A stretch of 35,492 bases of DNA from Phenylobacterium sp. (GTDB lineage: Bacteria > Pseudomonadota > Alphaproteobacteria > Caulobacterales > Caulobacteraceae), in NCBI RefSeq assembly GCF_004799395.1, contig NZ_SSMZ01000025.1, forward strand, positions 1 through 35,492, in the 5' to 3' direction. The notes beneath the pieces were generated by a model. It had not been told where the DNA came from. It searched no databases and worked only from the letters and a program-made list of their open reading frames with translations. How positions within the stretch are numbered: the stretch's first letter is position 1; each line of letters begins with the position of its first letter. A program made the translations under genes and the position numbers. Shown here in pieces: positions 4,882 to 35,492 of the stretch.

Positions 4882-5856
4882 ATGCGCGTCGTCACCATTG
4901 TCAGCCTCGGAGGTTGCGCCCTGTTCGGGCTGGCCGCCCTGGTGGTCGCCAAGACCATGATCCCCAACCCCGGGACCGTGAAGGTCGCCACGGCGGCGCC
5001 CGTCGCCGGTGTGCCGGTGGTCGTGGCCAAGGGTCCCCTGAAGTTCGGCGACAAGCTGGACGCCAGCAAGATCGAGATCCTGAACATCCCGTCCAACGCG
5101 GTGCCGGAGGGCGCTTTCACCACCACCGCCCAGGTGCTGTCGCAGGACTCGGGCGGGCCGCCGGTGGCGCTGACCCCGATCGCTGCGCGCGAACCACTTT
5201 TGCCGGCCAAGCTCAGCGGACCTGGCGCGCGCGCCTCGGTCGCCGCCGAGATCCGGGACGGCTTCCGCGCCTACACCATCAAGGTCACCGACGTGACCGG
5301 CGTCGGCGGCCATGCCCTGCCCGGCGACCGGGTGGACGTGGTGCTTATGCGTGACACCTCGAGCGATCCGCAGAAGCACAGCTATGTGTCGCAGGTCGTG
5401 ATCCAGGACGTGCGCGTCCTTGGCGTCGACCTTAACGCCGACCTGGCCTCCAACAAACCCGCCACCCCCAACACCGCGACCCTCGAGGTCAGCGTGCCCG
5501 ACGCCCAGAAGCTGGCGGTGGCCGGCGACCTGGGCAAGCTGAGCCTGGCGCTACGCCGCACCGGCTCGACCGAGGTCGCCCAGACCGCGCCGATGAACGC
5601 GAGCTTCGCCGGCGGCGGTCAGGCGCGGCCGATCCACGCCTCTGTGCGCCGCGCCGCGACCGCGCCCTCCGCGCCCGTCACGCCCATGATCCTGATCGTC
5701 GAGGGCGACGGCCGCGGCGACGGTTCGCACAAATCGTCGCACAAGGACCGCGCGCCCAAGCCGCCCGCAGCCCCCGCGCCCCCGGCCGTCCCCGCGCTCG
5801 ACCCGCCCAAGGCGACGGCGTCGCTGTCGGTGGCGTCTTCGGGGCAGCCCTCGTGA
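4882..5856 (+). CDS. cpaB: Flp pilus assembly protein CpaB (SAF domain)
   Basis: ORF 4783..5856; likely start at ATG 4882 (MRVVTIVSLGGCALFGLAALVVAK). SAF-like region VPVVVAKGPLKFGDKLDASKIEILNIP and TGVGGHALPGDRVDVVLMRD are CpaB/RcpC-like; first gene of a tad gene string. Confidence 0.88.
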   Translation: MRVVTIVSLGGCALFGLAALVVAKTMIPNPGTVKVATAAPVAGVPVVVAKGPLKFGDKLDASKIEILNIPSNAVPEGAFTTTAQVLSQDSGGPPVALTPIAAREPLLPAKLSGPGARASVAAEIRDGFRAYTIKVTDVTGVGGHALPGDRVDVVLMRDTSSDPQKHSYVSQVVIQDVRVLGVDLNADLASNKPATPNTATLEVSVPDAQKLAVAGDLGKLSLALRRTGSTEVAQTAPMNASFAGGGQARPIHASVRRAATAPSAPVTPMILIVEGDGRGDGSHKSSHKDRAPKPPAAPAPPAVPALDPPKATASLSVASSGQPS

Positions 5857-5891
5857 GTTTCCCCGCTTCGCGATTCCGGGAGTTCCTGACC

Positions 5892-7361
5892 ATGCCGCGC
5901 CAACTGGCCGCCGCGGCGGCCGCCGCCCTGACCCTGTTCAGCGCCGGCGCCGTCGCCCTGCCGGCCCACGCCGACGCCATGATGAGCGAGCAGGCCCCCA
6001 GCCGCGTCATCACCGTGCCCAAGGACAAGTCGCTGTCCTTCCGCCTTGACGAACCGGCCAGCAAGATCGTCGTCGCCCAGCCGGACATCGCCGAGGTGGT
6101 CGCCACCACCGACCGCAGCTTCTATGTCCGCGGCCTCGACATCGGCTCCACGAACCTCCTGGTCTACGGGCCGGGCGGACGGCTGATGCAGGTGATCGAC
6201 GTCCGTGTCGGCGTCGACGCCCAGGCCCTGGAGCGCGACCTGGCCCAGGCCCTGCCCGCTGAGCACATCAAGGTCCAGTCCCTGGGCGAGGGCGTGCTCT
6301 TGACCGGCGATGTCTCCAGCCCCGGCGTGGCGCTGCGCGCCAAGGCCATCGCCGACAAGCTCGCGCCGGATGGCGTGACCTCGATGTTGCGCACCGCCAA
6401 CGCCCAGGTGGTGCTGGAAGTCCGCGTGCTTGAGGCCACCCGTAACGCGTCCCAGGACATCGGCCTGGGCGCCACGCTCAGCAACAACTCGGTCAACTTC
6501 AGCTTCGGCACCGGATTGATCGGCAACTCCCCGCCCAATGGCGTGCTGAGCTTCTCCGGCCACTCGGGCAACACCACCATCGACGCCACCCTGCAGGCCC
6601 TGGAGTCGAAGGGGGTTATCCGCACCCTTGCGCGCCCGAACCTGGTGGCGCTGTCCGGCGAAAAGGCCAGCTTCCTGGCCGGCGGCGAGTTCCCGTTCCC
6701 GATCCCCAGCGGCCTGGGCCAGATCTCCATCGAGTTCCGCCAGTACGGCGTGAAGCTCGACTTCACGCCGACCGTACAGGAAGACGGCAAGATCAGGCTC
6801 TTGGTGGCCCCGGAAGTCAGCGCTCTCGACCCCACCAACACCGTACGCGTCGACAACGTGACCGTCCCTGCGCTGACCGTGCGCCGCGCCAACACCACTG
6901 TGGAGCTGAGGAGCGGCGAATCCCTGGCGATTGGCGGCCTCTTCCAGCACACCGCCCAGACCGACGTGAACCAGATCCCCGGGCTCGGGAACATCCCCAT
7001 CCTGTCGGCCCTGTTCCGCTCGAGCCGCTATCAGCGCAATGAGACCGAACTGCTGATCGTGGTGACACCGCGCATCGTCACCCAGGCCGATATCGACCGG
7101 GACAAGGACCGCACCCTGAGCGGCGTCGAGCCGGACATGGCCGGCTTCCTGCTGAACGGCAAGGCGCTGGACAAGCCGATGTCCCACGACATGCGCGGTC
7201 CGATCGAGCCTCCTGCCCCGGCGGCGGCTCAGGCCAAGGCCCAGACGCCGGCCGCGGCAGCAACGCCGATCCCGGCCCAGGCGCTGCGCGGCGAGATCGC
7301 GCCGCCGGTTCCGACGGCCGCCTCCCTTGAAACCCCCACGGTTCCCGCGTCCGGAAAGTAA
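5892..7361 (+). CDS. cpaC: Type II/IV secretion secretin CpaC (RcpA)
   Basis: ORF 5853..7361; signal peptide at MPRQLAAAAAAALTLFSAGAVALPAHA; secretin domain with VLEVRVLEATRNASQDIGL, GGEFPFPIPSG, LRSGESLAIGGLFQ and RSSRYQRNETELLIVVTPRIV. A GTG start at 5853 is also possible. Confidence 0.92.
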   Translation: MPRQLAAAAAAALTLFSAGAVALPAHADAMMSEQAPSRVITVPKDKSLSFRLDEPASKIVVAQPDIAEVVATTDRSFYVRGLDIGSTNLLVYGPGGRLMQVIDVRVGVDAQALERDLAQALPAEHIKVQSLGEGVLLTGDVSSPGVALRAKAIADKLAPDGVTSMLRTANAQVVLEVRVLEATRNASQDIGLGATLSNNSVNFSFGTGLIGNSPPNGVLSFSGHSGNTTIDATLQALESKGVIRTLARPNLVALSGEKASFLAGGEFPFPIPSGLGQISIEFRQYGVKLDFTPTVQEDGKIRLLVAPEVSALDPTNTVRVDNVTVPALTVRRANTTVELRSGESLAIGGLFQHTAQTDVNQIPGLGNIPILSALFRSSRYQRNETELLIVVTPRIVTQADIDRDKDRTLSGVEPDMAGFLLNGKALDKPMSHDMRGPIEPPAPAAAQAKAQTPAAAATPIPAQALRGEIAPPVPTAASLETPTVPASGK

Positions 7362-7371
7362 GCGTACTTCG

Positions 7372-8552
7372 ATGAGTCTCCAGTCCCTCAGCGGCAAGCG
7401 TGTCCTCACTCTCGGCCCGGCGCTCGCCGGTCTCGCCGCGGGACCGCTGGCGGGCGCACAGATTGAAGTCGCCGGCCTGGAGCGGCTGATCGGGATCGGC
7501 GCGGCGGACGCCGAACTGATCCTTATCGACGCCGACGCCTGGAGTCCGCCGGCCCTGGCGGCCGCGGTGCAGGCCCTGTCGATCTGCGCGGCGCCACCGC
7601 CCGTCCTGCTCGTCGGTTCGCATCTGCCGACAGCCGTAGTGCGCGGCCTCCTGCGCCTCGAACGCTCCGACGTGCTGGACGCGCCCTATACGCCTGAGGT
7701 GCTGGCGGCCGTCATCGGCACATTGATGGAGCAGAAGCCCGCCCCGGCTGCCCAGCCGGCCGCCCCGCCTCACGCCGTCGATGTCGCCCGTTGCTGGTCT
7801 GTGATCGGCGCGGTGGGCGGCTCAGGCGCCACCACTATCGCCATCGAGGTGGCCACCCAGCTCTGCGCGCGGCAGACCAAGGACAAGAGCGTCTGCCTGA
7901 TCGACCTGCATCTCGCCGACGGCTCGGCCTCGGCCTATCTGGGCGCCCATCCGTCGCTGCGGCTCGCCGAACTGGGCGCCGCTGCGGAAAAGCTCGATGC
8001 GGCCATGCTGCAGGCCTTTGTCACCCCAGTGACCAGCCAGCTCGACCTGCTGGCCGCCCCGCGCGACCCCGACGCCTTCGAGGCCGTCCCGCGCGAGGCG
8101 ATCCTGCGGATGCTGGAGATCGCCTGCGAGAGCTACGACTGGGTGATCCTCGACATGCCGCGCCATCGTCGGAGCTGGAGCCTGGAGGTCCTGGGCGGCT
8201 GCGACGAGGTGCTGGTGGTTTCCGAGCTGACCGTCCCGGCCCTGCTGGCCGCCCGTTCGCTGTCCGATGAGATCGAGCGCGACCTGGGATCCGGTCAGAA
8301 ACCGAGAATCGTCCTGAACCGCCTGGCCAGCCGCATGTTCGGCCCGGCGCCGTCCATGGCCGAAGCCGAGAAGGCCCTACAACGCAAGGCCGAGGCGGGC
8401 GTCAGCTCCGACTGGGAGGCCGCCGCCGCCTCGGTCAACCTGGGCGGACCGATCTCCACCCACCGGCCCAAGTCGAAGATCGTCAAGGACATCCAGACCA
8501 TGGTCGAGCGCCTCGCCAGTCAACCGGCCCGCAACGGCGTGAAGGCCGCCTG

Positions 8553-8553
<1 letters not shown>
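7372..8553 (+). CDS. cpaE: Pilus assembly ATPase CpaE / TadZ (MinD/ParA-like)
   Basis: Start ATG 7372 (MSLQSLSGKRVL); degenerate Walker-type SVIGAVGGSGATTIAIEVA, CLIDLHLADGSASAYLG, YDWVILDMPRHRRSWSLEVLGGCDEVLVVSE; stop overlaps the cpaF start. Confidence 0.88.
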
Positions 8554-9992
<1,439 letters not shown>

Positions 9993-10000
9993 GCCCCGCC

Positions 10001-10960
10001 ATGAAATTCGACGGCCACCTCATCTTCCTGATCCTGGTCTTCGCCGCGGTGTTCACCGCCGGCCAGGCCGTGATCGGCCTCGTGTCGGTGGCCACCCAGA
10101 AGCGCAAGGTCAACAAGCGCCTGAAGGTCGCCGACAAGATCGACGGCGTCTCGGCCCTGGTCATGGAGCTGCGCAAGCAGCGTGGCCTGAACGCCGACGG
10201 TGAGCGCGGCGAACGCTTGCGCTGGCTGTCCAACCTGATCGTCGCCTCGGGCCTGCCGTACAATCCGAAGAAGTGGGCGGTCTATTCGGTCCTGGCGGGC
10301 CTGGTCGGCGGCATGGGCGCGTTCGTCGCCACCAAGAACCCCCTGCTGTTTCCGGTCGGTCTTCTGCTCGTTGGCGTGGGCGGCCCGATCTTCTACCTGA
10401 AGCACTCGGTCAAGAAGCGCGCCAAGGCGCTGGGCTTCCAGCTGCCTCAGGCCCTGGAGATCATCGTGCGCAGCCTTGAGGCCGGCCACCCTGTGCCCAC
10501 CGCCATCAACCTGGTGGGCCGGGAAATGGTCGATCCGATCGGCTCCGAGTTCGGCATGGCCGCCGACGAGATCGCCTATGGCGCCACCATGGAACAGGCC
10601 ATCGCGCGGATGGCCGAACGCTGCCAGCACCCGGACGTCGACCTGTTCGCGGCCACCGTGCGCCTGCAGGAACGCACCGGCGGCAACCTGACCGGCCTCC
10701 TGAAGCTCAACGCCTCCACGGTGCGCGAACGCCACAAGATGCGCCTGAAGATCCAGGCCGCCTCATCGGAAGGCCGCGCCTCGGCGATGATCCTGACCTC
10801 GGCGCCCTTCGTCGCCATCGGCTTCATCGTGATCTCCTCGCCGCATTTCTACGGCGACGTCATCCACGAACCCGTCGTGAAGTGGGGCCTGACCGGCCTG
10901 GGGATCTGGATGTTCATCGGCAACATGGTCATGCGCCGCATGATCGATCTTCGGCTCTAA
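10001..10960 (+). CDS. tadB: Tad pilus inner-membrane platform protein TadB (type II secretion F family)
   Basis: 319 aa; QLPQALEIIVRSLEAGHPVPTAINLVGREM, ERTGGNLTGLLKLNASTVRERHKMRLKIQAASSEGRASAMIL; follows cpaF. Confidence 0.92.
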   Translation: MKFDGHLIFLILVFAAVFTAGQAVIGLVSVATQKRKVNKRLKVADKIDGVSALVMELRKQRGLNADGERGERLRWLSNLIVASGLPYNPKKWAVYSVLAGLVGGMGAFVATKNPLLFPVGLLLVGVGGPIFYLKHSVKKRAKALGFQLPQALEIIVRSLEAGHPVPTAINLVGREMVDPIGSEFGMAADEIAYGATMEQAIARMAERCQHPDVDLFAATVRLQERTGGNLTGLLKLNASTVRERHKMRLKIQAASSEGRASAMILTSAPFVAIGFIVISSPHFYGDVIHEPVVKWGLTGLGIWMFIGNMVMRRMIDLRL

Positions 10961-28013: not shown

Positions 28014-28532
28014 TCAGCGTTCCACAGCCTGACGCTGCATCGGCGCGAGCTTGGCCAGGAAGCGGTTCTGGTCGCGGAAGCCGATCTTCTCGTGATCCAT
28101 GGCCACCTGCAGGTGCTCCACGAGCGCGTTGAAGTCGGTGTTCTGCAGACCCATGTCCTTGTGCACGGTCTTCATGTCGCGGCCCGAATAGTCGCAGCCG
28201 CCATTCAGCAGATAACAGAATTGCTCTTTCAGCGTGCGGCGCAGGCGCACCATGTCATGGCTCTTGAAGATGTCGGAGATGCGCGGATCCGCCAGGCTGC
28301 GGTCCACGAGCTCGTCCACCACCCGATCCACTCCGGCCTTTTCGTGGAAGGCCTTCCACATGCCATCGCCTTCGAAGGGCGTGGTCCCGGCGTTCGCGGG
28401 CGCGTGGGCGTAGTCGGCGATTTCTTCCTCGCCGGGATACTTCGTTGACGGATGTTCGATCTTGAAGGTGGGAGCGGCGGCGGGCGCCGGCGTGGTCGCC
28501 ACGGCCGCGGCGAACAGAAGAGCTTGGATCAT
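28014..28532 (-). CDS. Group 1 truncated haemoglobin with N-terminal signal peptide (predicted exported)
   Basis: Start at 28532 (MIQALLFAAAVATTPAPAAAPTFK); globin region MWKAFHEKAGVDRVVDELVDRSLADPRISDIFKSHDMVRLRRTLKEQFCYLLNGGCDYSGRDMKTVHKDMGLQNTDFNALVEHL fits the TrHb1 YxG..M...H..L....DF pattern with a proximal His. Confidence 0.85.
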   Translation of the reverse strand: MIQALLFAAAVATTPAPAAAPTFKIEHPSTKYPGEEEIADYAHAPANAGTTPFEGDGMWKAFHEKAGVDRVVDELVDRSLADPRISDIFKSHDMVRLRRTLKEQFCYLLNGGCDYSGRDMKTVHKDMGLQNTDFNALVEHLQVAMDHEKIGFRDQNRFLAKLAPMQRQAVER

Positions 28533-28533
28533 C

Positions 28534-29409
28534 TCAGAACCCCGCTTGCAGTGAGAGATAGCCGCCGCGCTGATTGCGGAAGGTGGCGATCTCGCCAAGG
28601 TCCACATAGGCCGCGGTGACCGACAGGTGCTTATTGAGCGCGTAGGCGACGAAGACGTCTTTCCAGTCGTCCTCCTTCAGGCCAAGGTTGTTCGGCTTGG
28701 TGCGGTACTCTACGCCCGCGGCGAACCGCTTGGTGAGCAGGAGCGCCGCTGAGCCCTCGAACTCGGTGTGGTAGTTGTCGTTGCCCGGACCGCCGAAGCC
28801 CAGCAGGCCCGTCTGATTGGCCTTGGTCTCGCGCACGGCGCCGTTCAGCACCAGGCTTTCGTTGAGGAAGACCTTGGAGGCGGCCACGAACCAATCGACG
28901 CCGGAATTGTCCTTGGCGCCCAGGAAACTCAGCACCCCGCTTTGTGAGGCCCTCTTGTACTGCGCGCCCACCGAGACCTGCGGGACCCAGCTGTCCTGGT
29001 CGTAGACCGCGTCGCCGAGGAGCTTCACCTTCGCGCCATAGACGTCCTGGGAAAAGGTGAAGTCGCGGCCGAGGCCCAGCTTCACGCCAGTGCCCTGGGT
29101 GTCGAATTCCTGGTGCGCGTAGCTCAGCTCCACCCGGTCGCGGATACCGACCGCCGCGCCATAGGCGCGGAACTGATAGTCCTTCAACTGGATGCCGGTG
29201 GCGTGGACATTGGCGCCGATCCCATCGCGGGTCTCGTAGCCGGTGATCAGGGCCCAGGTGGCGATGCCGCCGCCGCCGGCGCCCTCGATGTTGCTCACGC
29301 CCTCGGTCAGCAGCAGCTTGCCGCCTTCCCGCATCTCGGTCTGCGCCTGTGCGGCCTGTGCGCACAGAACCATCCCGGCGCCAAGCAGCGCCGCGCAAAT
29401 TTTTCGCAT
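28534..29409 (-). CDS. DUF3034 family protein (predicted outer-membrane beta-barrel)
   Basis: Signal peptide MRKICAALLGAGMVLCAQAAQAQ; GKLLLTEGVSNIEGAGGGGIATWALITGYETRDGIGANVHATGIQLKDYQFRAYGAAVGIRDRVELSYAHQEFDT; ends in ...QAGF (C-terminal Phe typical of barrels). Confidence 0.82.
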   Translation of the reverse strand: MRKICAALLGAGMVLCAQAAQAQTEMREGGKLLLTEGVSNIEGAGGGGIATWALITGYETRDGIGANVHATGIQLKDYQFRAYGAAVGIRDRVELSYAHQEFDTQGTGVKLGLGRDFTFSQDVYGAKVKLLGDAVYDQDSWVPQVSVGAQYKRASQSGVLSFLGAKDNSGVDWFVAASKVFLNESLVLNGAVRETKANQTGLLGFGGPGNDNYHTEFEGSAALLLTKRFAAGVEYRTKPNNLGLKEDDWKDVFVAYALNKHLSVTAAYVDLGEIATFRNQRGGYLSLQAGF

Positions 29410-29445
29410 CCCTGGAACCCCCAAAGCCCCGCGTTTTGCGGTAGT

Positions 29446-29460
29446 TAGCCTCAGAGGCTA
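29446..29460. promoter_or_regulatory. Perfect 15-nt palindrome in divergent promoter (candidate operator)
   Basis: TAGCCTC-A-GAGGCTA, 7-bp arms with 1-nt centre, between the DUF3034/haemoglobin operon (-) and the cupredoxin gene (+). Confidence 0.45.
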
Positions 29461-29509
29461 TGGGGAAACCATTTACATAGCGTTCAACGAAACACGTTAG
29501 GCGAACGGC

Positions 29510-30160
29510 ATGCGCTTAAATTTCCTGCCCATCGCGGCCCTGGTTGTAGCCCTGGCCTTCGCCGGGCCGGCGCTCGCCGCCGACCTGACCGTCACCGTCA
29601 AAGGCGACGACGGGACCCCGCTTCCGGACGCGGTCGTGCTGGTGCATCCGGCTGGCGGCGCGGGCATGGGCGGGCCGATCCACTACAGCTGGCCCATCGT
29701 GATGACCCAGCAGAACATCTCCTTCAATCCGTACGTCCTGATCGTCCCCGTCGGCTCCACGGTGGCCTTCCCCAACAAGGACAAGGTCCGCCACCACGTC
29801 TATTCCTTTTCCGCGGCCAAGAAGTTCGAACTGAAGCTCTACGGCCAGCAGGAGGAGCGTACGGTCAACTTCGACAAGGCCGGCGTCGTCGCCCTGGGCT
29901 GCAACATCCACGACGTCATGATCGGCTACATCTATGTCGCCGACACGCCCTTCGCGGCGAAGACCAATGCGGCCGGCGAGGCGGTGATCCACGGCCTGCC
30001 CGGCGGCGCCGGGACCCTCACCGTCTGGCATCCCGACATGAAGGCCAAGGCTCCCATCGATCAATCCCTGGCCGCCGGCGCGGACACCGCGGCTGTGGCC
30101 CTGGGCCTGAAGCCGGTCTCGCTGCGCCACAAGAAGTCCACGGCCTCGATGGCGATGTAG
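29510..30160 (+). CDS. Cupredoxin / methylamine-utilisation-type blue-copper protein, exported
   Basis: Signal peptide MRLNFLPIAALVVALAFAGPALAA; FPNKDKVRHHVYSF and GCNIHDVMIGYIYV give an H...C-x2-H-x2-M type 1 copper ligand set as in amicyanin. Confidence 0.87.
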   Translation: MRLNFLPIAALVVALAFAGPALAADLTVTVKGDDGTPLPDAVVLVHPAGGAGMGGPIHYSWPIVMTQQNISFNPYVLIVPVGSTVAFPNKDKVRHHVYSFSAAKKFELKLYGQQEERTVNFDKAGVVALGCNIHDVMIGYIYVADTPFAAKTNAAGEAVIHGLPGGAGTLTVWHPDMKAKAPIDQSLAAGADTAAVALGLKPVSLRHKKSTASMAM

Positions 30161-30161
30161 C

Positions 30162-32483
30162 CTAGCCGTAGGCCTGGTTGCGCTGGTCGTCGGACAGGAA
30201 GGCCAGCAGGTCCTTGATCGGCATCGGGCGGGCGATCAGGTAGCCCTGCGCCAGGTCGCAGCCCATGGCGCTGAGGATCGAATAGCAGTCGTTTGTCTCG
30301 ACGCCCTCGGCGGTGACCTTGAGGCCCAGGCTGTGGGCCAGGTCGATGGTCGAGCGCACGATCAGCGCGTCGCGCTGGCTTTCGGTAACCCCTTCCACCA
30401 GCGACTTGTCGATCTTCAGTTCCTGGCCGTGAATCTGTTTCAGATAGGCCAGCGACGACAGGCCCGTGCCGAAGTCGTCGATGGAGATCGCGATGCCAGC
30501 CGCGGCGAAACGGTTGAGCATGGCCAACGCCAGCTCCGGGTTCTCGATGACCGCGGTCTCGGTGACCTCGATGGTCAGCCCACCGACCGCCCGCTTGGCC
30601 TCGGCCAGGGCGAAATCGGCGAAGTCCGGCTCGCCAAGGGTGCGGCCCGAGACGTTCACCGACATATCGACGACGTGACCGGCCTCGGCGAGGGTCCGCT
30701 GGACGTCGATGGCGCGCTTGAACACCCACTCGGTCAGTGTGCGGATGTGGCCGGTCTCCTCGGCCATGGGAATGAACAGGTCCGGCGGCAGCATCCCGCG
30801 CGCCGGGTGACGCCAGCGTGACAGCGCCTCGACGCCGGTGACCTTGCCCACCCGCATGTCGAATTTCGGCTGGTAGAAGAGGTCGATGGACCCGTCTTCG
30901 ATGGCGCGCAGCATCCCGCTCATCAAGGACAGGTTGGTGGCCGGGTCGCCGTAGGCCACGGCGTCGAAGAAGGCGACCTTCTTCTTGGCGCCGCGGGCCT
31001 GGTCGAGGGCGATGTTCGCCTGCTCGATGGCTGCGCCGGGGCCGGCGCCCCGCTGGATAGGCGCCAGGCCAAGGTGCAGGGTCACGTCGATCACGTCGCC
31101 GCCGACGTTCAGCGGCGCCTCGAGCTCGATCATCAGCTGGGCCGCGCCTTCTTCGGCCGCAACCAGGTCCTCGGCGATCAGCACGAAGCCCAGCACGTCG
31201 CTGGCCACCCGGGCCACGCCGGAAGCCGGCGCGAGGCCGGCCAGCCGGTTGCCGATCATCCGCACGGCCTGGGCCGCCAGCGAATAGCCGATAGCTCCGC
31301 GCAGGTGGTCGAAACGATGGACGCCCAGCGCCGCCACATAGACCTGGCCTTCCGGCAGGTCCGACAGCGCCTCGACCACCCGCTCAAGGGCCAGGCGATT
31401 GGGCAGGCCGGTGTCGCCATCGTGCAGCGCCAGGTGGGTGATCCGCCGCTCGCGGTCTCGAATCTCGGTGGCCATGGTGTTGAAACTACCGGCCAGGCGG
31501 CCGATCTCGTCGTTGGTCTCGATCTCGACCTGGGCTTCCTCGCCGCGCTGCAGGCGGTGCGCCGCCTCGTCCAGCGCGGTGATCGGCCGGGTGATGCCGC
31601 GGGCCAGCACCCAGGAGCCCCAGCCCACAACGGCCAGGCCGATCAGGCCGCCCAGCGCCACGATGGCCAGCATCAGCTGATAGGGCCGAAGCGCGAGCGC
31701 CAGCGGATAGCGCAGCACCAGCACCGACGGCGCGGTCTTGGTCAGGCTGGGCAGGGGTTTCACCAGCGCCAGGGTCGTGCCGCCGCTTTCGTCGATCGCC
31801 TGGGCGGTGGCCAGCTTCCTGGCTGTCGCCTGGTCGATGAAGCGGCTGAGTAATGTGCGGTCGTGCTCGCTGACACGCCCCTCCTGCCGCCAGCCGCGAG
31901 CGTCGCGGTTCAGCACCGAGGCGCTCAGCGGGATCGACGACAGCTTCTCCAGGCTCGACATCTCGTCCCGGTCGAGCTGCACGGCGAACACCAGCCAGCC
32001 GATCTGGTCGGGGGACATCACCGGCGCCGCCACCACCTGGAAGGACTTGCCGCCCAGAGTGACCACGCCGGCCGGGTCTTCGGCGTTGTCGAGCGCCTTC
32101 TCCAGACCGGGGCCGTCAGCGGCCAGCGCCTGGGCGTCCGCGCCGATCATATGGCCGTCCGTGGTGACGATGAATGCCGCGTCGACGTTGAAGCGCGCCT
32201 TGAGGTTTTCCAGCTCCGAACCGATGGTCGGTCCGTCGTGGGTGGCCACGGCCTCGCGGAAGCCGAAGTCCTTGGACAGCAGCGCTGAGCCCTCGCGCAG
32301 GCGGTCCGACCGCAGCGACCAGACCCGGTCGAACACCGTGCCGGTGGCGGTCAATTCGCCGCGCACCTGACGCTGGGCGGCCTGGTTGACCGCGGCCCAG
32401 ATGCTGACCGACACGACCAGCAGCGTCGCGCCGAATAGGGCGACGTAGAGGACGGTCAGACGGGTGCGAAGGCGGGTGAACAC
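30162..32483 (-). CDS. Membrane sensor GGDEF-EAL protein: predicted c-di-GMP phosphodiesterase with degenerate GGDEF
   Basis: 773 aa; TM, periplasmic sensor region, TM, HAMP (ARGITRPITALDEAAHRLQRGE), GGDEF-like HDGDTGLPNRLALERVV with ASDVL at the GGDEF position, EAL domain GVEALSRWRHP, SVNVSG, EVTETAV, IDDFGTGLSSLAYL, LKIDKSLV, AEGVET. Confidence 0.93.
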   Translation of the reverse strand: MFTRLRTRLTVLYVALFGATLLVVSVSIWAAVNQAAQRQVRGELTATGTVFDRVWSLRSDRLREGSALLSKDFGFREAVATHDGPTIGSELENLKARFNVDAAFIVTTDGHMIGADAQALAADGPGLEKALDNAEDPAGVVTLGGKSFQVVAAPVMSPDQIGWLVFAVQLDRDEMSSLEKLSSIPLSASVLNRDARGWRQEGRVSEHDRTLLSRFIDQATARKLATAQAIDESGGTTLALVKPLPSLTKTAPSVLVLRYPLALALRPYQLMLAIVALGGLIGLAVVGWGSWVLARGITRPITALDEAAHRLQRGEEAQVEIETNDEIGRLAGSFNTMATEIRDRERRITHLALHDGDTGLPNRLALERVVEALSDLPEGQVYVAALGVHRFDHLRGAIGYSLAAQAVRMIGNRLAGLAPASGVARVASDVLGFVLIAEDLVAAEEGAAQLMIELEAPLNVGGDVIDVTLHLGLAPIQRGAGPGAAIEQANIALDQARGAKKKVAFFDAVAYGDPATNLSLMSGMLRAIEDGSIDLFYQPKFDMRVGKVTGVEALSRWRHPARGMLPPDLFIPMAEETGHIRTLTEWVFKRAIDVQRTLAEAGHVVDMSVNVSGRTLGEPDFADFALAEAKRAVGGLTIEVTETAVIENPELALAMLNRFAAAGIAISIDDFGTGLSSLAYLKQIHGQELKIDKSLVEGVTESQRDALIVRSTIDLAHSLGLKVTAEGVETNDCYSILSAMGCDLAQGYLIARPMPIKDLLAFLSDDQRNQAYG

Positions 32484-32709: not shown

Positions 32710-33666
32710 ATGGCTTTGACGATTTCCGCGCCGGCCCCAGTGGGCTCCATCAACCCCTTTGCGTCGGTGGACGCCCTGGTCGAGGGCCTGGGCGGCGTCG
32801 GCTACATCGCCTCGCGCCGCATCGCGACGGCCCTCTACATGGCCGTCCACCTGCAGAAGCCGATCCTGGTGGAGGGCTCGGCGGGCGTTGGCAAGACAGA
32901 GCTGGCGCTTTCGACCGCTCGCCTGCTGGCCCAGCCCTTGATCCGCATGCAGTGCTACGAGGGCCTGGACGAGTCCAAGGCGCTCTATGAGTGGAAGTAC
33001 GGCAAGCAACTGCTCTACACCCAGATCCTGAAGGACCGCATGGGCTCGGCGCTGGCCGACGCGCCGGACATGGACGCGGCCATGGACCGCCTGCACGGCA
33101 TGGGCGACCTGTTCTTCTCCGAGCCCTTCCTGGAGCCCAGGCCCCTGATGCAGGCGCTGCGCCACGACGACGGCTGCGTCCTCTTGATCGACGAGATCGA
33201 CAAGTCCGACGAGGCTTTCGAGGCCTTCCTGCTGGAGGTGCTGTCGGCCTACCAGGTCTCGGTGCCCGAACTGGGCGTCATCGTCGCCAAGACCCCGCCC
33301 CTGGTGTTCCTCACCTCCAACAACGTCCGTGACCTGGGCGATGCGTTGAAACGGCGCTGCCTGCACCTGCACATCCCCCTTCCGGAGCCGGCGCTGGAGG
33401 AGCGGATCGTGGCCACTCGCGTGCCGGGGATCGAGCAGGCGTTGACCGGCCAGCTGGTGGCCTTCGTCCAGTCGTTGCGCATGCTCGACTTGCGCAAGGC
33501 CCCTTCGATTTCCGAGACCGTCGACTGGGCCCGCGCGCTGATCCTGCTGCACGCCCGGGACCTCGACCCGGCGATGGTGCGCGACACCCTGAACGTGATC
33601 CTGAAGTTCGAGCAGGACATTGCCGCCGTCGAACCCCAGATCGTCGAGCTGCTCGCGCGGCGCTGA
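32710..33666 (+). CDS. MoxR family AAA ATPase (CoxD-like)
   Basis: 318 aa; Walker A VEGSAGVGKTELAL, Walker B CVLLIDEIDKSDEAFEAFLLEVLSAYQVSVPELG, sensor VFLTSNNVRDLGDALKRRCLHLHI. Confidence 0.93.
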   Translation: MALTISAPAPVGSINPFASVDALVEGLGGVGYIASRRIATALYMAVHLQKPILVEGSAGVGKTELALSTARLLAQPLIRMQCYEGLDESKALYEWKYGKQLLYTQILKDRMGSALADAPDMDAAMDRLHGMGDLFFSEPFLEPRPLMQALRHDDGCVLLIDEIDKSDEAFEAFLLEVLSAYQVSVPELGVIVAKTPPLVFLTSNNVRDLGDALKRRCLHLHIPLPEPALEERIVATRVPGIEQALTGQLVAFVQSLRMLDLRKAPSISETVDWARALILLHARDLDPAMVRDTLNVILKFEQDIAAVEPQIVELLARR

Positions 33667-33677
33667 GGGCTCAGGCC

Positions 33678-35036
33678 ATGCAGCACACCCTCGAAGAGTT
33701 CCTCCGCGCGCTCCGCGCCGCCGACGTGAAGGTCTCGCCGGCCGAGGCGATCGACGCGGCGCGGACGGCGGCCACGGTGGGCTACGCGGACCGCGAACTC
33801 TTCAAGGACGCGCTCTGCGCCACCCTGGCCAAGTCGAAGGACGAGGTGGTCCGCTTCGACCAGGCCTTCGAGACCTTCTTCACGCGCGCACCCTTCGCCC
33901 TCGGCGCGCCGCCGCCGGACGAGGGTGAAGGTCGGGAGGGCGGTCAGGAAACGCCCGGCCTGGCGCAATCGCCGCTTGCCCAGATGCTGCTGAAGGGCGA
34001 CGCCGCTGGGCTCGCCCAGTCGATGGAAGAAGCCGCCGCACGCGCCGGCGTCGCCGAGATCCGCCTCTCCACCCAGCGCAGCCGCCTGACGCGGCGCCTG
34101 CTGGACGAGATGGGCCTCGCCGAAATCGAGAAGATCATCGCCAATGCGCGCCGCATGCCCGACGGCCAGGGGGTCGCCGACCGCCTGGACGCGGCGAAGA
34201 AGGGCCTGGTCGCCCAGGCCCAGGCCTTCGTCGAGCGACAGCACGAGCTCTACGCCTCCGGCTCCGGCAAGCAGTTGCGCGAGGAGATGCTGGCCAAGAA
34301 GGCGCTGAACGCCGACGGCGGCATCGATCCCGTCGACCTCGTCATGATGCAGGCCCTGGTCAAGCGCATGGCCAAGCGCCTGGCCGACCGCTATTCGCGC
34401 CGCCGCCACACCGCCAACCGAGGCCACCTCGACGTGCGCAAGACGCTCCGCAAATCCATGGCCCACGGCGGTGTGCCCTTCGAGATCGAGTGGAAGGTCA
34501 AGAAGGTCGACAAGCCGTCGATCGTCGCCATCTGCGACGTCTCCAAATCGGTGGCCGCCGCCGCCCAGTTCCTGCTGACCTTCCTCTATGCCCTGAACGA
34601 GGTGGTCGACCGGCTGGACGCCTACGCCTTCTCCGGCCGGCTGATCCCGGTCAACGCCATCCTCGACGACAACGGCGTCGAGGGCGCGATCCTCAAGGTG
34701 CTGCAGACCATCGGCTTCCAGCAAACCGACTACGGCCGCGCGCTGGAGGACTTCGTCGACAACCACATCGACCGCCTCGACCGCCACACCACGGTGATCA
34801 TCCTGGGCGACGGCCGCTCCAACTTCGCCGACCCGCGCCTGGACCTGATGCACCTGATCCAGCAGCGGGCCCGCGCGGTGATCTGGCTGAACCCCGAGCC
34901 CGAGAGCTATTGGGGCCAGGGCGACAGCGTCATGTACCGCTACGTCCGCTTCACCCACGTGGCCAAGCAATGCAACACGCTGGGCCAACTGGAGCGGATC
35001 GTCGAGGACGTGCTCCGGACCTACTCGGCCCACTAG
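33678..35036 (+). CDS. VWA domain-containing CoxE-like protein
   Basis: 452 aa; MIDAS motif VAICDVSKSVAAAAQFLLTFLYAL (DxSxS), RKTLRKSMAHGGVPFEIEWKVKKVDKP, TVIILGDGRSNFADPRLDLMHLIQQRARAVIWLNPEPESYWGQGDSVMYRY. Confidence 0.92.
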   Translation: MQHTLEEFLRALRAADVKVSPAEAIDAARTAATVGYADRELFKDALCATLAKSKDEVVRFDQAFETFFTRAPFALGAPPPDEGEGREGGQETPGLAQSPLAQMLLKGDAAGLAQSMEEAAARAGVAEIRLSTQRSRLTRRLLDEMGLAEIEKIIANARRMPDGQGVADRLDAAKKGLVAQAQAFVERQHELYASGSGKQLREEMLAKKALNADGGIDPVDLVMMQALVKRMAKRLADRYSRRRHTANRGHLDVRKTLRKSMAHGGVPFEIEWKVKKVDKPSIVAICDVSKSVAAAAQFLLTFLYALNEVVDRLDAYAFSGRLIPVNAILDDNGVEGAILKVLQTIGFQQTDYGRALEDFVDNHIDRLDRHTTVIILGDGRSNFADPRLDLMHLIQQRARAVIWLNPEPESYWGQGDSVMYRYVRFTHVAKQCNTLGQLERIVEDVLRTYSAH

Positions 35037-35038
35037 GC

Positions 35039-35492
35039 CTATTGGCGCATCCGCCAGGGGGATCGATCGTCCCACTTGGCGATCTCGCCTGTGGCCCAGG
35101 CGGTCGTCTTGTCGGCGTGGCAAACGTTGCAGGCGTTGGGGATGCCGAGATTCTCCGTCGCGGTGGGCGTCACGAAGTGGAACGTGTGGCTGGCGACATT
35201 CACCTTGCCCAGCGTCTGTTCGATCTTCGGCATGTGACAGGCCACGCAACTGTCCCCGGCGCTTCCGACCGCGTGATGGGTGTGCGCCTCGATCGTCGCC
35301 GCGCGGGGCCCGTTGCGGCCATTGGCGCTGTGGCAGGTCAGGCAGACCTCGTTGACCGGCTTGCGAAGCATGGCTTGATTGTCCGTACCGTGCGGATCGT
35401 GGCAGCTGAAGCAGGTCACGCCCCGCGCGTACATCAGGCTCTGAACGAAATCGTTGCCCTGCATCCGGTTCTTGTGGGCCGTGTCGTCCGGG
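35039..35492 (-). CDS. Multihaem c-type cytochrome, C-terminal part (5' end beyond window)
   Basis: Reading frame stays open through the window end (PDDTAHKNRMQGNDF...); four CxxCH motifs CFSCH, CLTCH, CVACH, CNVCH. Confidence 0.88.
   Translation of the reverse strand, partial: PDDTAHKNRMQGNDFVQSLMYARGVTCFSCHDPHGTDNQAMLRKPVNEVCLTCHSANGRNGPRAATIEAHTHHAVGSAGDSCVACHMPKIEQTLGKVNVASHTFHFVTPTATENLGIPNACNVCHADKTTAWATGEIAKWDDRSPWRMRQ

Follow-up and report, generated by a model that had tools for sequence, protein, structure and literature searches.

A conserved gene set joining an exported haemoglobin, a DUF3034 outer-membrane barrel, a cupredoxin and a predicted c-di-GMP phosphodiesterase in Phenylobacterium and other Proteobacteria

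Why should genes for an exported haemoglobin, an outer-membrane protein of the DUF3034 family, an exported copper protein and a membrane-bound EAL protein stand side by side on a contig of Phenylobacterium sp.? They occupy positions 28014-32483 of NZ_SSMZ01000025.1 (assembly GCF_004799395.1). The window analysed here, 35,492 nucleotides in length, is the entire contig and part of a 4.4 Mb Caulobacteraceae assembly. All four genes lie where a preliminary description of this DNA had placed them, and together they probably represent an unstudied system linking envelope chemistry to decisions on biofilm formation and motility.

On the minus strand the DUF3034 gene (28534-29409) is followed, after a gap of 1 nt, by the globin gene (28014-28532). 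The open frame of the latter reaches 28607, overlapping DUF3034; the ATG at 28532 yields a signal peptide and, with this start, both the exported haemoglobin and the 1-nt gap of the preliminary description are borne out. An intergenic region of about 100 bp (29410-29509) separates DUF3034 from the divergent cupredoxin gene on the plus strand (29510-30160), and the EAL gene (30162-32483, minus strand, GTG start) converges on the latter so that their stops are 1 nt apart.

A search with PF11231, the Pfam entry for DUF3034, covered 399 Pseudomonadota genomes and 299 genomes of the window's family, and open reading frames in the neighbourhoods of the DUF3034 genomes, as well as in 80 named loci, were searched with profiles whose seeds were the proteins of the window. 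DUF3034 is found in 39/399 Pseudomonadota genomes (28/212 genera) and in 74/299 genomes of the family. At 146 of 148 distinct DUF3034 loci a globin gene directly follows on the 3' side, in the same orientation and with no gap >200 nt; of the two loci that depart from this, one holds a second, degenerate DUF3034 copy. All four genes are found together within 6 kb at 110 of the 148 loci. Alpha-, beta- and gammaproteobacteria all retain the set, its members being arranged in at least three distinct orders. With cup denoting the cupredoxin gene, the order cup>EAL>DUF3034>globin is that of more distant genomes of the same phylum, presumably gammaproteobacterial and here called gamma-type; DUF3034>globin>cup>EAL is found in Caballeronia and Burkholderia; and a divergent arrangement, EAL<cup< facing away from DUF3034>globin>, in Caulobacterales, Sphingomonadales and Hyphomonadaceae. 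Two sub-operons, DUF3034-globin and cup-EAL, are thus rearranged between lineages yet remain together. When all other neighbours were clustered, no fifth partner conserved beyond close relatives emerged, so that the four-gene set behaves like a single block whose surroundings vary.

The same association is visible at the level of whole genomes. Scored with alignment A2 in the 399 genomes, the cupredoxin is present in 38/39 of those with DUF3034 as against 15/360 others (Fisher p 1e-39) and, by genus, in 27/28 as against 10/184 (p 9e-25), neither value being corrected for phylogeny. In five genomes (G213, G225, G261, G390 and G126) the cupredoxin gene is distant from the DUF3034-globin pair or on another contig, where it usually lies beside an EAL gene or that of the ~410-aa outer-membrane protein described below. 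Scores for the globin subfamily are bimodal: all 39 DUF3034 genomes give E<1e-42, two others about 1e-40 and the rest 1e-26 or weaker. Hence 39 of the 41 genomes with E<1e-39 carry DUF3034, and the other two (G154, G328) hold orphan lipoprotein globins with no DUF3034 nearby. A gene-neighbourhood survey had been proposed in the preliminary description; its outcome, in conservation and co-occurrence alike, strongly supports a functional linkage of the four families.

The same four-gene set is also carried by annotated plasmids of Caballeronia sp. SBC2 and Novosphingobium sp. EMRT-2, where the products are labelled DUF3034, group 1 truncated hemoglobin, methylamine utilization protein or carboxypeptidase regulatory-like protein, and EAL domain protein. 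Since the set is complete in both plasmid records examined, it can travel as a unit.

Is the window itself typical of this pattern? The divergence of the cupredoxin gene from DUF3034 and its convergence with the EAL gene, both described earlier, are real, though the convergence is a derived order. The inverted EAL gene is seen only in Phenylobacterium and near relatives; elsewhere in the alphaproteobacteria cup>EAL is an operon. An assembly artefact was considered and rejected, since the convergent order recurs at 14 further loci in Phenylobacterium and its close relatives, some of them being two copies of one genome. Five loci of the same group (L070, L071, L154, L164 and L166) show a hybrid order, cup2>EAL>OMP> cup1<DUF3034>globin>, with OMP denoting an outer-membrane protein gene. 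In a tree of EAL proteins the window gene belongs to a clade of the genus where hybrid loci, all five of them, and plain ones are interspersed; this clade is nested among the DUF3034-type EAL proteins of Caulobacteraceae. The simplest reading is that an ancestor of the genus underwent a single inversion and acquired cup2 and OMP, both of which were later lost repeatedly; the convergent order in the window is what such losses left behind and not an artefact.

The hybrid loci lead to a second flavour of the module, composed of cupredoxin, EAL protein and an outer-membrane protein of ~410 aa, with no globin. This last protein is exported, ends in an aromatic or hydrophobic residue and matched no Pfam or NCBIfam family; in hybrid loci its gene is found, for example, at L070:5786-7048 and, on the minus strand, at L154:10000-11235. 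Operons of the form cup>EAL>OMP without DUF3034 are present at L222, L227, L229, L233-L236 and L242, while four loci (L223, L237, L241 and L243) have cup>OMP but lack the EAL gene. Because cup>EAL>OMP also occurs without DUF3034, the common core looks like an exported cupredoxin, an outer-membrane protein and an EAL phosphodiesterase, DUF3034 with its globin being one barrel option. The pathway including a haem protein that had been suggested earlier is thus partly supported: the four-gene set is conserved, but the globin, which the second flavour lacks, is dispensable to the wider theme.

What would be the output of such a core? The EAL protein (773 aa, domains assigned with Pfam) consists of a transmembrane segment, a periplasmic double Cache (dCache) domain, a second transmembrane segment, a HAMP domain, a degenerate GGDEF domain and an intact EAL domain, the last three as given in the preliminary description. 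The dCache_3 match scores 48.8 bits against a cut-off of 25.7 and the EAL domain has an E-value of 1e-65. A structural model of the ectodomain has the double Cache fold (pLDDT 92.8), and its Foldseek matches are dCache proteins. Residues E552, N610, E639/E642, D669, D670, K690, E726 and Q746 of the EAL domain are present in 100% of 112 homologues, while the GGDEF motif reads RVASD in the window, where no diguanylate cyclase active site is found. Since the EAL catalytic set is invariant and GGDEF is intact, as RLGGDEF, in only a minority of homologues, the shared output would be hydrolysis of cyclic di-GMP (c-di-GMP), and the protein is predicted from its sequence to be a c-di-GMP phosphodiesterase. 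The earlier suggestion of a link to c-di-GMP hydrolysis thus gains support both from the catalytic residues and from the periplasmic sensor domain.

The cupredoxin (216 aa, with a signal peptide) has the ligands H95, C131, H134 and M137, invariant in 125/125 homologues, and a type 1 copper site is therefore expected. The fold and the His-Cys-His-Met set are shared with amicyanin and pseudoazurin, but matches to these families, at 16 and 17 bits respectively, are far below cut-offs near 110, and the C-terminal part, which is carboxypeptidase-regulatory-like, is additional. Its partner, moreover, is the EAL gene and not methylamine dehydrogenase. Identity with amicyanin (TIGR02657) was accordingly rejected, on its score of 16 bits against 110 and on the lack of a conserved methylamine dehydrogenase neighbour; of the label 'amicyanin-like' used previously, only the type 1 copper fold survives.

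Membership of DUF3034 is clear for the 291-aa barrel protein, which scores 339 bits with PF11231 (E 1.8e-101) against a curated cut-off of 25. It has a signal peptide, a conserved Gly-rich N-terminal segment and a C-terminal Phe. An AlphaFold2 model built with 32 homologues is a 12-stranded barrel (pLDDT 80.7, pTM 0.78), in keeping with the outer-membrane location proposed before, and the best solved matches found with Foldseek are FapF, OmpG and OmpF-type barrels, at about 10% identity.

The globin (172 aa; Pfam Bac_globin E 1.5e-9) aligns gaplessly, in a profile alignment, with the core of Mycobacterium tuberculosis HbN (PDB 1idr). Its proximal His124 (F8) is invariant in 146/146 globins and the CD1 Phe (F89) is conserved at 0.99, so that a 2/2 globin core with the F8 His and CD1 Phe places it among group 1 truncated haemoglobins. 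The alignment puts V76 at B10, L97 at E7 and L101 at E11. In HbN, Tyr at B10 and Gln at E11 stabilise bound O2. Here the polar distal pocket typical of HbN-type O2 binders is absent: the positions aligned with HbN Y33 and Q58 are V/L/I/M in 141/156 loci (B10) and Leu in 146/156 (E11). With such an apolar pocket around the haem, the globin is less likely to be a classical O2 carrier or an NO dioxygenase. Export, a frequent lipoprotein signal and a pair of Cys residues further distinguish these globins from HbN. Cys106 and Cys113 occur together in 136/156 globin loci and both are missing in 18, a pattern that would fit a disulfide, as expected in an exported protein. Part of the window's genus (L152, L154 and relatives) has A or V in place of both, as if a disulfide had been lost; the window retains the pair.

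A lipobox, by a strict pattern, is present in the globins of 22 loci, nearly all gamma-type, and three further gamma-type globins are lipobox-like by eye; the globin is thus predicted to be a lipoprotein in most gammaproteobacterial loci. No Asp follows the lipobox Cys and, under the E. coli sorting rule, outer-membrane anchoring is therefore predicted. Globins with lipoprotein signals include those of L041-L043, L046-L052 and other gamma-type loci. Two orphan lipoprotein copies, apart from any DUF3034 gene, are at L250:6558-7154 and L251:6249-6695.

How might these parts act together? We tentatively favour a single trans-envelope signalling module in which chemical conditions at the outer membrane or in the periplasm would determine how much c-di-GMP is hydrolysed. 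The DUF3034 barrel, with the globin as its dedicated envelope partner and presumably in physical contact with it, would let in or bind some small ligand. In view of the apolar haem pocket, the best guess for this ligand is NO or another that, unlike O2, would need no stabilisation by hydrogen bonds. The cupredoxin would be the soluble periplasmic element common to both flavours, and the redox or occupancy state of its copper, or its complex, might be read by the dCache ectodomain. HAMP and the GGDEF-like domain would then relay the signal to the EAL phosphodiesterase, and the resulting change in local c-di-GMP, likely a decrease, would influence attachment, dispersal or motility. A more specific form of the scheme we regard as decidedly doubtful. 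It would be a new class of trans-envelope c-di-GMP receptor, with a barrel-anchored outer-membrane lipoprotein haemoglobin that senses NO or a related ligand outside the cytoplasm and signals via a periplasmic blue copper protein to the dCache-EAL protein; exchange of barrels, DUF3034 with its globin or the ~410-aa protein without one, would supply one copper-protein/EAL core with different inputs.

Known haem-based inputs to c-di-GMP signalling, such as DosP, globin-coupled sensors and H-NOX, are mostly cytoplasmic, and their relation to the envelope module is one of functional analogy only. The same is true of the RcsF/OMP system of E. coli, where an outer-membrane lipoprotein and a barrel report the envelope state to inner-membrane signalling (PMC4942254): there is no sequence relation, the output here would be c-di-GMP hydrolysis and the contact of barrel and globin is a conjectured one. 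Periplasmic redox chemistry influences a c-di-GMP enzyme in STM3615 with DsbA/DsbB (PMC4143323), again a functional analogue only of the EAL protein; the ectodomain here has no conserved Cys and the candidate relay is a copper protein.

Several observations weigh against the signalling module. No conserved Cys or His was found in the dCache sensor domain, and direct metal handover is therefore not indicated. Its nearest solved relatives, McpH, PctA and DctB, bind purines, amino acids and carboxylates, which would favour a small-molecule signal. DUF3034>globin pairs with no nearby cupredoxin or EAL gene occur at about two dozen loci. GGDEF is intact in roughly 40% of the EAL-protein homologues, some of which may be bifunctional, and the conserved N-terminal segment of DUF3034 is modelled with low confidence. 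Finally, none of the FNR/DNR-, FixK- and CueR-type boxes is meaningfully enriched in 79 intergenic regions, and gas- or copper-responsive transcription was rejected on this ground. With the sensor devoid of conserved Cys and His and these boxes wanting, the responsiveness to O2, NO or metals put forward in the preliminary description is unproven. In the window, neither a sigma-70 consensus promoter nor an FNR/DNR-, FixK- or CueR-type box was seen in 29410-29509, and no structured RNA or tRNA was found.

The main rival takes up the first three of these points. Here the genes would encode an uptake or processing pathway, with DUF3034 as porin for a specific small molecule and the globin and cupredoxin as redox catalysts that act on it or guard against its by-products, while the dCache domain would itself sense this metabolite, in the manner of chemoreceptors. 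The purine, amino-acid and dicarboxylate sensors to which the modelled domain is closest suggest this, its lack of conserved metal ligands is compatible with it, and an independent function of DUF3034 and globin would fit the loci where they stand alone. Against this, the set has no transporter, enzyme or catabolic gene as a conserved neighbour, and where the barrel is exchanged the cupredoxin remains paired with the EAL gene. We consider this pathway a real but unlikely possibility.

It is improbable that the set serves detoxification of NO or reactive oxygen species, or an electron chain, in which the cupredoxin feeds electrons to an outer-membrane globin that turns over NO, O2 or peroxide, and the phosphodiesterase is a co-regulated response gene that does not read the chain. 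Cupredoxins are electron carriers, which suits such a role. So does the case of cable bacteria, in which truncated haemoglobin domains fused to multihaem cytochromes are proposed to be periplasmic oxidases (PMC11976967). However, the globin pocket lacks the O2-stabilising Tyr and Gln of HbN, the second flavour retains the cupredoxin without a globin, and the intergenic regions show no FNR/DNR-type box.

Export or matrix assembly, with DUF3034 as a FapF-like polypeptide channel tuned locally by c-di-GMP hydrolysis, is very unlikely. The FapF amyloid secretion barrel (PDB 5o65) is the best solved structural match and shares with DUF3034 its 12 strands and N-terminal segment, but the TM-score is only about 0.5, OmpG and OmpF are nearly as close, and no fap, other amyloid or secreted-substrate gene is conserved nearby. 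That the four genes are unrelated neighbours joined by chance or shared ancestry only is barely credible and already largely refuted: adjacency in a single genome can be meaningless and the co-occurrence statistics ignore phylogeny, but the set is kept in three proteobacterial classes, in several orders and amid changing flanks.

No description of the cluster or of a DUF3034 function was found in the open-access literature, subscription papers and preprints lying outside the search; the 'DUF3034' of one retron paper appears to mean DUF3037. The component folds are all known; undescribed, as far as tested, are the way they are combined, a globin that is a lipoprotein and a barrel that can be exchanged. 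Were the signalling module real, a haemoglobin and a blue copper protein in the envelope would act upstream of a c-di-GMP phosphodiesterase, a new route by which NO or redox chemistry outside the cell could bear on biofilm decisions. Roles would also be found for DUF3034, for the ~410-aa family of the outer membrane and for a copper protein that is widely labelled 'methylamine utilization protein'. Culturable strains of Caulobacter, Brevundimonas, Sphingomonas and Caballeronia would allow the module to be tested directly.

Some minor observations concern other copies of these genes. DUF3034 is present on NZ_CP049320.1, NZ_CP039697.1 and 11 further large plasmids of Caballeronia, Paraburkholderia and Novosphingobium. 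An extra EAL copy adjoins the cluster beyond the cupredoxin gene in L041, L042 and L048, and lies between cupredoxin and DUF3034 in L128. At L040 (G078:C3:72638-73313) a second DUF3034 copy is fragmented and has an in-frame TAG, and the neighbouring globin also contains a TAG; the same genome has an intact DUF3034-globin pair elsewhere.

Within the window, a MoxR-type ATPase and a VWA (CoxE-like) protein are encoded at 32710-35036 on the plus strand, divergent from the EAL gene. The pair resembles MadB/MadC, below their cut-offs, and adjoins the cluster in several members of the genus. A multihaem cytochrome c fragment with a doubled CXXCH (35039-35464, minus strand) runs off the contig end. 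Genes for a secretin, a T2SSE ATPase and T2SSF, at about 5853-10960 on the plus strand and thus ~18 kb away from the cluster, form a locus resembling those of Tad/Flp-type pili.

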